DNA of 64,000 nt from Alphaproteobacteria bacterium (GTDB lineage: Bacteria > Pseudomonadota > Alphaproteobacteria > WRAU01 > Hepatincolaceae). Positions 16,085 through 40,754 of this stretch are shown here, in pieces (position 1 is the stretch's first letter; the number at the start of each line of letters is the position of its first letter). Below the pieces are notes generated by a model. That model saw only the letters and a program-made list of their open reading frames with translations, was not told the DNA's origin and ran no database searches. The stretch is taken from NCBI GenBank assembly GCA_009780035.1, contig WRAU01000003.1:1-64000 (forward strand), given 5' to 3'. The position numbers and the translations under genes are program-made.

Positions 16085-16372
16085 TTATTTAATTTCATTA
16101 TTGTTATTAAGATATTTTTCCACACTATAAATTTTATCAAATCGCTTAAATGTATGGTGTATACCCTTAATTTGTCTATTAGTATTTTGTATTTTAGAAT
16201 AATGAGCCTCTATTAGTTCGTGCAATGGTGAAGTTTCTTCAAGTGAATCTTTAATTTTTAGTAATAAATCATCATAATGTTTAATAAGCTCAGAAGAATT
16301 AAATAACAGACTTCGAAATTGGGTTTTAATATTATAATGTGCTAATTCGGGAGTTTTGACAGAATCAGTCAT
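16085..16372 (-). CDS. Small helical protein of the structured-leader module, copy 1
   Basis: A 95-residue, predicted all-helical, charged protein with no membrane segment or signal peptide. It matches the 87-residue protein at 40267-40530 along almost its whole length; shared blocks include ELAHYxIK, LLFN, HYSxI and NTFKRF/HTFKRF-like helices. No known family is recognised. Both genes sit directly downstream of the same structured RNA leader and promoter, so the leader and protein appear to travel as one unit of about 500 bp. A role in binding or responding to the RNA is conceivable but unsupported. Confidence 0.7.
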   Translation of the reverse strand: MTDSVKTPELAHYNIKTQFRSLLFNSSELIKHYDDLLLKIKDSLEETSPLHELIEAHYSKIQNTNRQIKGIHHTFKRFDKIYSVEKYLNNNNEIK

Positions 16373-16402
16373 TTGCTAGTCTCTAATTAATAATTATACT
16401 CA

Positions 16403-16569
16403 GGGCGGGAGACTACAAAACTCTACTAACACAAAGAGCCGAGATTATTTCCTATTGCTAGGTATTTTATTCTCTGCTCTCCCGCCCATATAATTATATG
16501 AGAAGATACATATGATGAAAAGACAACATATGCTGTGTTAGTAATTAATATTGGGTTTGTAGTCCCAAC
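16403..16569 (-). ncRNA. Structured RNA leader with pseudoknots, copy 1
   Basis: Read on the minus strand from a promoter at 16576-16604. Helices: 5' hairpin TTGGG/CCCAA (16551-16555 with 16564-16568), whose 8-base loop (16556-16563) is complementary to 16412-16419; a long-range helix 16534-16543 with 16424-16433; and GGGCGGGAGA/TCTCCCGCCC (16478-16487 with 16403-16412), which crosses the other two; its end base 16412 is also counted in the loop pairing. Inside is CCTA-GCAA-TAGG (16451-16462), a GNRA-capped hairpin on this strand only. The 5' hairpin, loop pairing and long-range helix change sequence but still pair in copy 2 at 40561-40720. That covariation, seen directly, supports a functional RNA; the pseudoknotted fold is inference. 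Confidence 0.72.
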
Positions 16570-16575
16570 ATTTAT

Positions 16576-16604
16576 ATTATTTATTGATTAAACTTTATTG
16601 TCAA
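16576..16604 (-). promoter_or_regulatory. Sigma-70-like promoter of leader module copy 1
   Basis: On the minus strand, -35 TTGACA (16599-16604), 17-base spacer, -10 AATAAT (16576-16581). Box sequences and spacing are identical in copy 2. The predicted start at about 16569 falls at the first base pairs of the structured leader. Confidence 0.7.
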
Positions 16605-16624: not shown

Positions 16625-17302
16625 TTAAACCAAATCTGCAATATCTATATTTTTTGCTGTAGATAAATTCAAAGTTTTTTTCTCTCTCATAGTCCAGTCT
16701 TCAATTTTTTCTACAAGCCGACCAAGTGTGTAGCAGTCCCGATGAATTCTTTTTAAAAAATAATCCATAACTTCCATACTTACATTCAGCTGTTTATCCG
16801 AAAGCATTTTAAAGAATATAGCTTTTAAAGATATTTCATCTGGCGTATTAATCTTAAAAATCATCGCAGCATTTAAACGAGAGCGCAAATCTGGCAGCTG
16901 TATAGCTATATCTTGAATGCTTTCTCTTGCGGTTAAAATTAGCTTGCTGCCATTTGCCAAGACAGTATTATATAAATTGAAAATATTTACTTCATCATCT
17001 AGGCTTTTACTGCCAATATCTTCCAACAGAATAAGTTTATGCTTATTGGTAATTTTTTCAATATTTTCTAAGGAAGATATATCGGCAAAAGAAACTGCTG
17101 CCCCTTGATTTTCTTTAATAAAGATATGGCTGATAAAGGTTTTACCAACTCCGGCATCTCCATAAACATATAAAACATTAGACAGCCAATTATCCAACAC
17201 GAATAAAAAATCAACTATAGGCTTATTGAATTCACCAACCACAATATCACTTTTGCTTAGATTAGTTTGATTATTAAAGCTGAAGAACAACTGCGATTTC
17301 AT
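16625..17302 (-). CDS. hda: Hda-like DnaA-related AAA+ replication regulator
   Basis: A 225-residue DnaA-like AAA+ domain without the DNA-binding domain IV. Walker A is GDAGVGKT, Walker B ILLEDI, with a sensor region LILTARE. Hda/HdaA works with the beta clamp to convert DnaA-ATP to DnaA-ADP after initiation. Its ATG overlaps the TGA stop of the upstream DUF2066 gene (ATGA), so translation is probably coupled; DUF2066-hda neighbourhood is usual in Alphaproteobacteria. Confidence 0.9.
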   Translation of the reverse strand: MKSQLFFSFNNQTNLSKSDIVVGEFNKPIVDFLFVLDNWLSNVLYVYGDAGVGKTFISHIFIKENQGAAVSFADISSLENIEKITNKHKLILLEDIGSKSLDDEVNIFNLYNTVLANGSKLILTARESIQDIAIQLPDLRSRLNAAMIFKINTPDEISLKAIFFKMLSDKQLNVSMEVMDYFLKRIHRDCYTLGRLVEKIEDWTMREKKTLNLSTAKNIDIADLV

Positions 17303-36861: not shown

Positions 36862-37830
36862 ATGAATCATAACCATCATCACCACTCCAGCCATCACAGC
36901 TTTGGACCATTGCATAATAAACATTACGATCGCAAAGCCATGCAAAAAACTACAATTATTGCTATGGTTCTGGTGTTATCGTTTACTATCATTGAATTTG
37001 TCGGCGGTTATTTAAGCGGATCGCTGGCACTTATGGCAGACGCCGGACACATGCTGACCGACTTTGTTTCACTAATTTTTGTGTATATTGGGCTGCATGT
37101 GGCACAAAAACCTAACAACAAAGAAAAAACCTATGGCTATTCGCGTTTTGAAATAATTACCAGCCTTTTTAATTCATTATTTTTAATAATAGTGTGCATT
37201 TATATTGTTTACGAGGCTGTTCTGCGGTTTTTAAATCCTCAGCCGGTAAATCCTAAACTTATGCTGCCTGTTGCTGTAGCTGGATTGTTAATTAATATTT
37301 TAGTGATGTATATGTTTAGAAAAGCTGAAGCTAAAAATATGAAAAAACAACATGCCGATAATAAAAACTTATTAATGGAAAGCAATATTTTACATTTTCT
37401 TTCCGATACTATAAATTCTGTTTTTGTAATTATTGCAGGAGTTATAATATATTATACCGGCTGGGATATAGTTGACCCTATTTTATCTCTCGCCATGATT
37501 GCCCTAATTGCTAATGGTGCTTTAAGAATTATTTTTCATTCAATTAATATTTTAATGGAATCTGCTCCTGCAACCATTAAAAGCAACGAAATTGAAACAT
37601 ACATTGAAAAAAATGTAGATGGCGTGCTGGATATTCATCATATTCATTTATGGATGCTGAATGAGGAAGAAAACATTATAACTCTGCATGCGGTAATTGA
37701 TAAAAATGCGTCTTACCATGATATTATTGATAATATCAAGCAGGCTTTGCGCAGTAAGTTTCGTATAGAACACTCCACCGTGCAAATTGAAGAAAAAGAC
37801 AGGTCGTGCCTAGATAAGCATTTAGCTTAA
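36862..37830 (+). CDS. Cation diffusion facilitator (CzcD/ZitB-like)
   Basis: A 322-residue inner-membrane metal/proton antiporter with six helices. The N-terminus is His-rich (ten His in the first 20 residues), a likely metal-binding stretch. The metal sites appear as LMADAGHMLTDFVSL in helix 2 and LHFLSDTINSVF in helix 5 (HxxxD), followed by a cytoplasmic domain with DIHHIHLWML. The pattern suits zinc, possibly with cobalt or cadmium. It has a strong AGGAGG site and a hairpin leader upstream. Confidence 0.92.
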   Translation: MNHNHHHHSSHHSFGPLHNKHYDRKAMQKTTIIAMVLVLSFTIIEFVGGYLSGSLALMADAGHMLTDFVSLIFVYIGLHVAQKPNNKEKTYGYSRFEIITSLFNSLFLIIVCIYIVYEAVLRFLNPQPVNPKLMLPVAVAGLLINILVMYMFRKAEAKNMKKQHADNKNLLMESNILHFLSDTINSVFVIIAGVIIYYTGWDIVDPILSLAMIALIANGALRIIFHSINILMESAPATIKSNEIETYIEKNVDGVLDIHHIHLWMLNEEENIITLHAVIDKNASYHDIIDNIKQALRSKFRIEHSTVQIEEKDRSCLDKHLA

Positions 37831-37863
37831 AGTTTAGTAATTATACATATAAAAGCAAACTTC

Positions 37864-37967
37864 CGTCATGCTGATGAAAACCGGCATCCATTTACAGAAT
37901 GTTTTAATTGCAGCTCTGTTTTTTGTAGAATACCCCCTATGGATACCGTGTCAAGCACAGTATGACG
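37864..37967. repeat. Palindromic interspersed repeat, CGTCATG type, copy 1
   Basis: Outer arms CGTCATGCTG (37864-37873) and CAGTATGACG (37958-37967) pair with one mismatch; inner CATCCAT and ATGGATACC also pair. The arrangement resembles the GGAT...ATGACG palindromic repeats scattered in Rickettsia and other Alphaproteobacteria. A second, shorter copy is at 44574-44643. Confidence 0.6.
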
Positions 37968-37970
37968 ATT

Positions 37971-38005
37971 TAGGTATTGTATTCTCTGCTCTCCCACCCA
38001 TATAT
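37971..38005 (-). repeat. Truncated remnant of the structured-leader module
   Basis: These 35 bases match 40615-40649 of the structured leader with a single mismatch (A at 37996 for G). They cover part of the GCAA hairpin and one strand of the G+C-rich helix. The promoter, the rest of the RNA and the protein gene are absent. The fragment abuts the palindromic repeat on its left. Confidence 0.75.
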
Positions 38006-40560: not shown

Positions 40561-40720
40561 GAGCGGGAGATAGAAACTCTCACAAACACAAAGAGCGAGA
40601 TTATTCCCTATTGCTAGGTATTGTATTCTCTGCTCTCCCGCCCATATATAAATATACGAGAAAGCACATACTAACATTTGAGTGTTAATATGCGGTGTTT
40701 GTGATGGGTTTCTAGCCCAT
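40561..40720 (-). ncRNA. Structured RNA leader with pseudoknots, copy 2
   Basis: Helices equivalent to copy 1: ATGGG/CCCAT 5' hairpin (40704-40708 with 40716-40720); its loop strand 40708-40714 pairs with 40571-40577; long-range helix 40695-40704 with 40580-40589; GGGCGGGAGA/TCTCCCGCTC (40634-40643 with 40561-40570), crossing the former; GCAA hairpin 40607-40618. The first three have different bases from copy 1 but still pair, while the GCAA hairpin and the 40634-40643 strand are unchanged. End bases 40704 and 40708 are counted in two helices each. The whole lies between a conserved promoter and the small protein gene. Confidence 0.72.
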
Positions 40721-40725
40721 AGTTA

Positions 40726-40754
40726 ATTATTTAATAAACCTACATTATTGTCAA
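40726..40754 (-). promoter_or_regulatory. Sigma-70-like promoter of leader module copy 2
   Basis: Minus strand: -35 TTGACA (40749-40754), 17-base spacer, -10 AATAAT (40726-40731), the same boxes and spacing as copy 1 although the spacer has diverged. The predicted start is at about 40720, the first base of the folded leader. Confidence 0.7.

Follow-up and report, generated by a model that had tools for sequence, protein, structure and literature searches.

The window, i.e., the whole 64,000-nt stretch of alphaproteobacterial DNA analysed here, carries the same unit twice, in both cases on the minus strand: copy 1 at 16604-16085 and copy 2 at 40754-40267. In copy 1, a promoter recognised from its sequence (16576-16604), with the -35 box TTGACA at 16604-16599, a 17-nt spacer and the -10 box AATAAT at 16581-16576, is followed by a 5' hairpin (16551-16568; stem TTGGG/CCCAA) whose loop contains site a1 (ACTACAAA, 16563-16556), and by site b1 (TACTAACACA, 16534-16543), the complement of a segment b' in a folded core RNA. 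This core (16403-16487), of the type of Rfam family RF02221 according to cmscan, the R1 model and covariation, includes an outer stem P1 (GGGCGGGAGA/TCTCCCGCCC), a hairpin P2 (CCTAGCAATAGG, 16462-16451), a hairpin P3 with b' (TGTGTTAGTA, 16433-16424) and the segment a' (TTTGTAG, 16419-16413). A candidate a2 site (AGACTAGCAAA, 16372-16382), imperfect and with one extra G with respect to AGACTACAAA, abuts the ATG of an ORF (16085-16372) for the 95-aa two-helix protein P0001, an assignment backed by paralogues, dN/dS and a structure model. Copy 2 repeats this arrangement, with a promoter at 40726-40754 (TTGACA at 40754-40749, 17-nt spacer, AATAAT at 40731-40726), a 5' hairpin at 40704-40720 (ATGGG/CCCAT) bearing a1 in its loop (TAGAAAC, 40714-40708), site b1 (TCACAAACAC, 40695-40704), an RF02221-type core at 40561-40643 (cmscan and R1 model) with b' (GTGTTTGTGA, 40589-40580) and a' (GTTTCTA, 40577-40571), and an ORF for the paralogous 87-aa protein P0002 (40267-40530). 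A first-pass annotation had described this two-copy unit, and at both sites the promoter, the hairpin with its loop pairing, and the long-range helix match that description letter for letter.

Housekeeping genes, for an RNase D-like exonuclease, HolC, RNase HII and ribonucleotide reductase, flank both window copies, with no prophage genes among them. Upstream of the copy 1 promoter, and codirectional with it, lies a 225-aa ORF (16625-17302) that matches nSTAND3 NTPases (E 2e-8). A decayed third core fragment (37971-38004, minus strand) retains only the 5' part of the outer stem and the P2 region, with 94% identity over 34 nt. Within 37800-38005 it is adjoined by a long inverted repeat (TAGCAAATTATAAAGCTCTATATCACTTAAATT...), possibly a MITE or IS remnant.

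Both units had been taken for a two-copy module; they are real, but when the 1.42-Mb genome (17 contigs) was searched with the leader sequence and a model derived from its own copies, 13 full copies came to light in addition to the core fragment inside the window. The -35/-10 pair with 17-nt spacing is found in all 13, and the 5' hairpin begins 6-9 nt past the -10 box. The earlier proposal that the RNA is tied to the small protein and starts near the predicted transcription start is supported. In the better-conserved copies the homology is sharply bounded, opening at the -35 box and closing with the last codons of the ORF, which defines a unit of about 515 bp. Many copies also show a palindrome-like sequence, AATTATTTAATAATT, over the -10 region (for example at 16576-16604), possibly an operator for a shared repressor, an interpretation made uncertain by the AT-richness of the region. 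An insertion sequence or MITE was considered for the unit itself and rejected; there is no transposition signature, and flanking direct repeats are absent except for one AT-rich 14-mer at copy 1, which is near chance. In one copy (L007) a Bro-N protein stands behind the RNA instead of the small helical protein, while two others keep the RNA in front of an ORF with an internal deletion (L006) or of a 29-codon remnant (L012). Separately, a C-terminal piece of the small protein occurs with no RNA in front, directly after the end of another gene (L020, at G000 C1:181541-181648). A dispersed set of 13 copies, with housekeeping neighbours at both window copies and an orphan helical protein under purifying selection, is an odd combination.

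The core RNA and the proteins encoded behind it

The core, about 85 nt long (79-96 nt over the copies), belongs to the Rfam family RF02221, sRNA-Xcc1. The cmscan scores are 50.1 bits for copy 1 (E 6.6e-8) and 44.5 bits for copy 2 (E 1.5e-6), just below the gathering cut-off of 53 bits, and for this reason a default Rfam scan misses both: at gathering thresholds the window yielded one tRNA only, and RF02221 surfaced in E-value mode. Two sister copies lie above the cut-off (L003 with 60.5 bits and L014 with 54.1 bits), and with the R1 model copies 1 and 2 reach 86.2 and 83.8 bits, respectively. Moreover, the core aligns over its full length to the RF02221 model, and the consensus outer stem, internal-loop hairpin and second hairpin are kept with covariation. 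The RNA, initially regarded as undescribed, is thus of a described family, an outcome that the first-pass annotation had itself named as a refutation of its view.

Read from 5' to 3', the outer stem opens the fold, P2 follows, then comes P3, whose loop carries b', and the unpaired segment a' precedes the closing strand of the outer stem; in this genome the core starts with GG. Among 100 distinct sequences, two-sided changes have been found at all 21 core pairs, so that the earlier view of a structured RNA kept by compensatory change is supported. In this set 93.3% of the cells are paired, a figure that leans high because the alignment was fitted to the model; the proportion falls to 39-52% when partners are slid by 1-3 columns. 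Two helices described as unchanging are indeed the same in the two window copies, but they vary and covary in the other copies and in relatives. A GAGC/GCTC pairing within the outer stem, broken in several copies, was dropped. The covariance model of the 13 copies, run on 385 genomes of the class, detects the RNA in 12 of them, its own genome included, and a search with a simple core motif returned at least 120 stretches in IMG/VR as well as 22 in named genomes, chiefly of Pasteurellaceae and Moraxella. Another genome of the same class (G292, 1.6 Mb) has at least 12 RNA copies, several of them before small helix-turn-helix proteins, in what appears to be a separate multicopy expansion (loci with RNA: L037, L047, L051, L053, L055, L056, and L057).

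At homologous sites in other genomes and phages, most of the proteins encoded behind the RNA match phage antirepressor families (n = 86), namely Bro-N (25), Rha (13), KilA-N (12), P22_AR_N (11), AntA (7) and ORF6N (4), with counts that can overlap. None of the window proteins matched the antirepressor families. Profile searches locate the small helical protein, whole or in pieces, at 11 places of the genome, and dN/dS values of about 0.13-0.53 among intact paralogues indicate that it is translated and kept by purifying selection. Its AlphaFold model is a two-helix hairpin (mean pLDDT 79), and a fold search with this model gave no match at E<=0.001. Profile matches in the PDB, the best of which (E 9e-6) was a designed spike five-helix construct, have been read as coiled-coil noise. 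No viral relatives were found, and in other genomes of the class only marginal matches appeared (best E 3e-4, with an internal stop). The protein is therefore an orphan, devoid of convincing relatives in the databases. RNA and protein distances among the copies correlate weakly (Mantel r 0.23, p 0.16), so this test does not show co-inheritance of both parts.

Complementarity upstream and downstream of the core

The segments a' and b' of the core have two sets of partners each: a1 and b1 upstream, and a2 and b2 downstream, between the RNA and the ORF. Upstream, a', located just before the 3' strand of the outer stem, complements the a1 loop of the 5' hairpin over all 13 copies. Complementarity of at least 7 nt exists in 13/13 copies of this genome, in 18/18 sites of the class and in 87% of 111 sites of the phage collection, compared with 26-33% for swapped partners. 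Duplex energies calculated for all 13 x 13 combinations of core and leader average -20.3 kcal/mol for cognate and -11.5 kcal/mol for non-cognate pairs. Downstream, in the region reaching to just past the start codon, the corresponding values are -13.5 and -10.4 kcal/mol, and in both tables the permutation p of 5e-5 is the resolution limit of the test. Both partner sets are thus specific to their own core in the set as a whole.

In relatives the downstream sites are also correctly placed. Among 116 sites from other genomes and phages, a2 is a perfect complement of a' over at least 6 nt in 87% (21% with swapped partners), and b2 of b' in 75% (19% with swapped partners); near-identical pairs were excluded from the swapped-partner control at phage sites, which controls relatedness only in part. 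The order a2 then b2 is observed in 98.8% of 81 non-own sites, and the distance from the end of b2 to the ATG has a median of 9 nt, which places b2 on the Shine-Dalgarno region. Named examples of the layout are the ant gene of Rac-SA53, the Vibrio phage VPBES and an insertion element of E. coli. In E. coli GMM060 (L214; NZ_CM183920.1:196725-199151), an RF02221 leader (70.4 bits) with clear a1, b1, a2 and b2 sites lies together with a P22AR_C protein and an ISL3-family transposase inside bcsE. The leader query has matches at 13 places of the GMM060 genome, so that a C4-like module may be travelling on a transposon there.

Within the 13 copies the picture is more heterogeneous. Textbook a2 and b2 sites occur in L012 and L021 (TTAACGA, followed at the start codon by either ACAGAAA or TACATAATGT), the window-copy sites are imperfect (the cognate downstream pairing of copy 1 ranks 2/13 in the duplex energy table), and about five copies (L005, L006, L008, L010, and L014) have no convincing a2/b2. 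In L004 the b1 pairing has been lost, yet the downstream pairing across the ATG ranks 1/13.

A proposed C4-type explanation and its alternatives

This layout resembles that of the C4 RNA of phages P1 and P7 (c4-icd-ant; Rfam C4, RF01695, and c4-a1b1, RF03163). In the P1 record the order is a1, b1, c4, a2, b2, icd (73 aa) and ant1, and both systems share a1, b1, a folded RNA with b' before a' and a small ORF; the intervening a2 and b2 are clear in relatives and significant for the own set as a whole, but imperfect in the window copies. The stem order in the Rfam drawing of C4 is the same as in our core. The differences are also clear: the conserved internal loop of P2 (AAUACAAUACC/GGGAAUAAU) is specific to RF02221, unlike C4, and the ORF here is not Icd. 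The C4 covariance model gave no match at E<=1 to 10 to the loci of this genome or to related ones, and our model scored 7 bits on P1 c4. Common descent with C4 is therefore unsupported, and what is proposed is that the units work like C4, not that they are members of that family in the strict sense. As a side observation, the Rfam family isrK (RF01394) scores 35 bits (E 7e-6, cut-off 50) over the P1 c4-a1b1 leader (L200, 8231-8312), a hint that isrK and c4-a1b1 describe related leaders.

Each unit is probably a C4-type antisense-RNA operon of phage origin whose RNA silences the ORF behind it. One promoter would give a single transcript with the a1 hairpin, b1, the folded RNA of about 85 nt and the small ORF, from which the folded RNA would be cut out, as judged from P1 C4, where RNase P does so, and from the C4-like RNAs of Acinetobacter baumannii. 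For the C4 RNAs of P1 and P7, a cut by RNase P at the 5' side of the outer stem is among the results cited in PMC5320573, and the RNA sRNA-Xcc1 has been mapped in Xanthomonas campestris as a separate RNA of 88 nt (PMC2996969), a size equal to that of the core and in line with excision. By analogy with P1 C4, a' and b' of the freed RNA would then pair with a2 and b2, which lie around the ribosome-binding site and the start codon, stopping translation of the ORF, while a1 and b1 upstream, with the same sequences, would act as decoy or folding partner. Since every copy has its own a and b sequences, a given RNA is expected to act mostly on the small protein of its own unit. The module would have multiplied as a unit of about 515 bp, and in the window, if not elsewhere, both of its sites are apart from prophage genes. 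Such RNAs elsewhere precede antirepressors, P1 Icd and SymE, and by that analogy one may guess that the small protein inhibits growth or antagonises a repressor.

A related possibility is a toxin-antitoxin module resembling type I or type III, in which the RNA would be the antitoxin, the protein the toxin, and the copies would be kept by addiction. The multiple copies, the small ORF behind an RNA and the dN/dS below 1 would fit such a module, as would the control of Icd, a cell division inhibitor, by P1 C4 and the position of sRNA-Xcc1 ahead of the toxin-like symE in integron cassettes of Xanthomonas (PMC12444791). A type III system, however, is opposed by a single RNA devoid of tandem repeats and by the lack of a ToxN-like nuclease, the protein being a two-helix orphan that matches no family; in a typical type I system the RNA and the ORF would be overlapping antisense genes, whereas here they share strand and transcript. 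As a separate explanation it seems unlikely, and it would agree with the C4-type one if the protein proved toxic. The first-pass suggestion of an antitoxin RNA or selfish element was close in spirit to the antisense reading.

The crossing helices had originally been interpreted as pseudoknots, and a cis-acting leader in which a1:a' and b1:b' cross the outer stem, and whose fold, possibly under the control of a protein or ligand, would govern translation of the ORF in the manner of an autoregulated leader or riboswitch, is another candidate. In the copies of this genome, pairing with a1/b1 surpasses that with a2/b2 in strength and regularity, and Rfam models the a1/b1 part of C4 as a separate structured element. 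Nevertheless, the same core segments also complement sites downstream at the ribosome-binding site, as in P1 C4, and this pairing too is partner-specific, both in relatives and in the own set; antisense sites are thus the likelier reading. A purely cis fold does not predict the behaviour of L004 described above, sRNA-Xcc1 occurs as a free RNA (PMC2996969), and the genes downstream are unrelated regulators that form no metabolic pathway. We consider this leader improbable. A riboswitch, also suggested at first, is not favoured either: nothing in the evidence points to one, the core precedes unrelated regulators, and the layout is antisense.

The published view of sRNA-Xcc1 as a trans-acting RNA regulated in virulence (PMC12189769 and references therein) would make the free core mainly a regulator of other messages, with the ORF behind it incidental, and the broken ORFs of L006 and L012 would suit this; but with target sites in the right order and position on the same transcript, pairing segments that differ per copy and fit local targets better than a shared regulon, and an ORF under purifying selection, it is very unlikely.

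Relation to described systems and significance

Besides C4 of P1 and P7, three described systems come closest to the units. RF02221 itself, known from Xanthomonas campestris and annotated in many proteobacteria and phages, is alike in core sequence and structure. Rfam and the papers cited here treat the RNA of about 88 nt alone, whereas in this genome it forms one unit with a promoter, the a1/b1 leader and a small ORF, and the unit exists in 13 diverged copies. The Group 1 C4-like sRNAs of A. baumannii resemble the present set in being many per genome, with variable a' and b', and apparently processed from longer transcripts (PMC5320573). Those RNAs match the C4 family, while ours match RF02221 and each stands ahead of a member of an orphan family. 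Another example is the sRNA-Xcc1/symE cassette of Xanthomonas integrons (PMC12444791), in which the RNA lies directly upstream of one small gene in a mobile unit outside phages; SymE is a known toxin-like protein, and the protein here is an unrelated two-helix orphan. In Rfam, RF02221 is in no clan, whereas C4 and c4-a1b1 share CL00128, and PMC12189769 names sRNA-Xcc1 and C4 as separate entries. No statement that sRNA-Xcc1 is a C4-type RNA was found in the open-licence literature, and it may have been noted earlier in other sources. Already on record were the RNA family, the principle of C4 and the existence of several C4-like RNAs per genome; 13 diverged copies with an orphan protein are new as far as the searches go.

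A broader proposal, which we put forward tentatively and with slightly less than even confidence, is that RF02221 is a second widespread C4-type antisense class acting on phage antirepressors, which has escaped from phages (here, in the ISL3-type element and in integron cassettes) into stand-alone units of a silencer RNA and a small protein, and which in this genome forms 13 mutually insulated pairs silencing a possibly toxic orphan family. sRNA-Xcc1, annotated in many proteobacterial genomes, has been discussed as a virulence-linked, trans-acting or even vesicle-delivered RNA. Should it prove to be an antisense RNA of C4 type whose target lies on the same transcript, its function could be tested directly, the clan assignment of RF02221 in Rfam would have to be revisited, and targets predicted on the assumption of a free sRNA would need rethinking. 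The 13 copies would offer natural matched and mismatched pairs of antisense and target within one cell, a gauge of how pairings of 7-10 nt separate paralogous RNAs, and the unit would exemplify how components of phage lysogeny control become autonomous elements of a genome.
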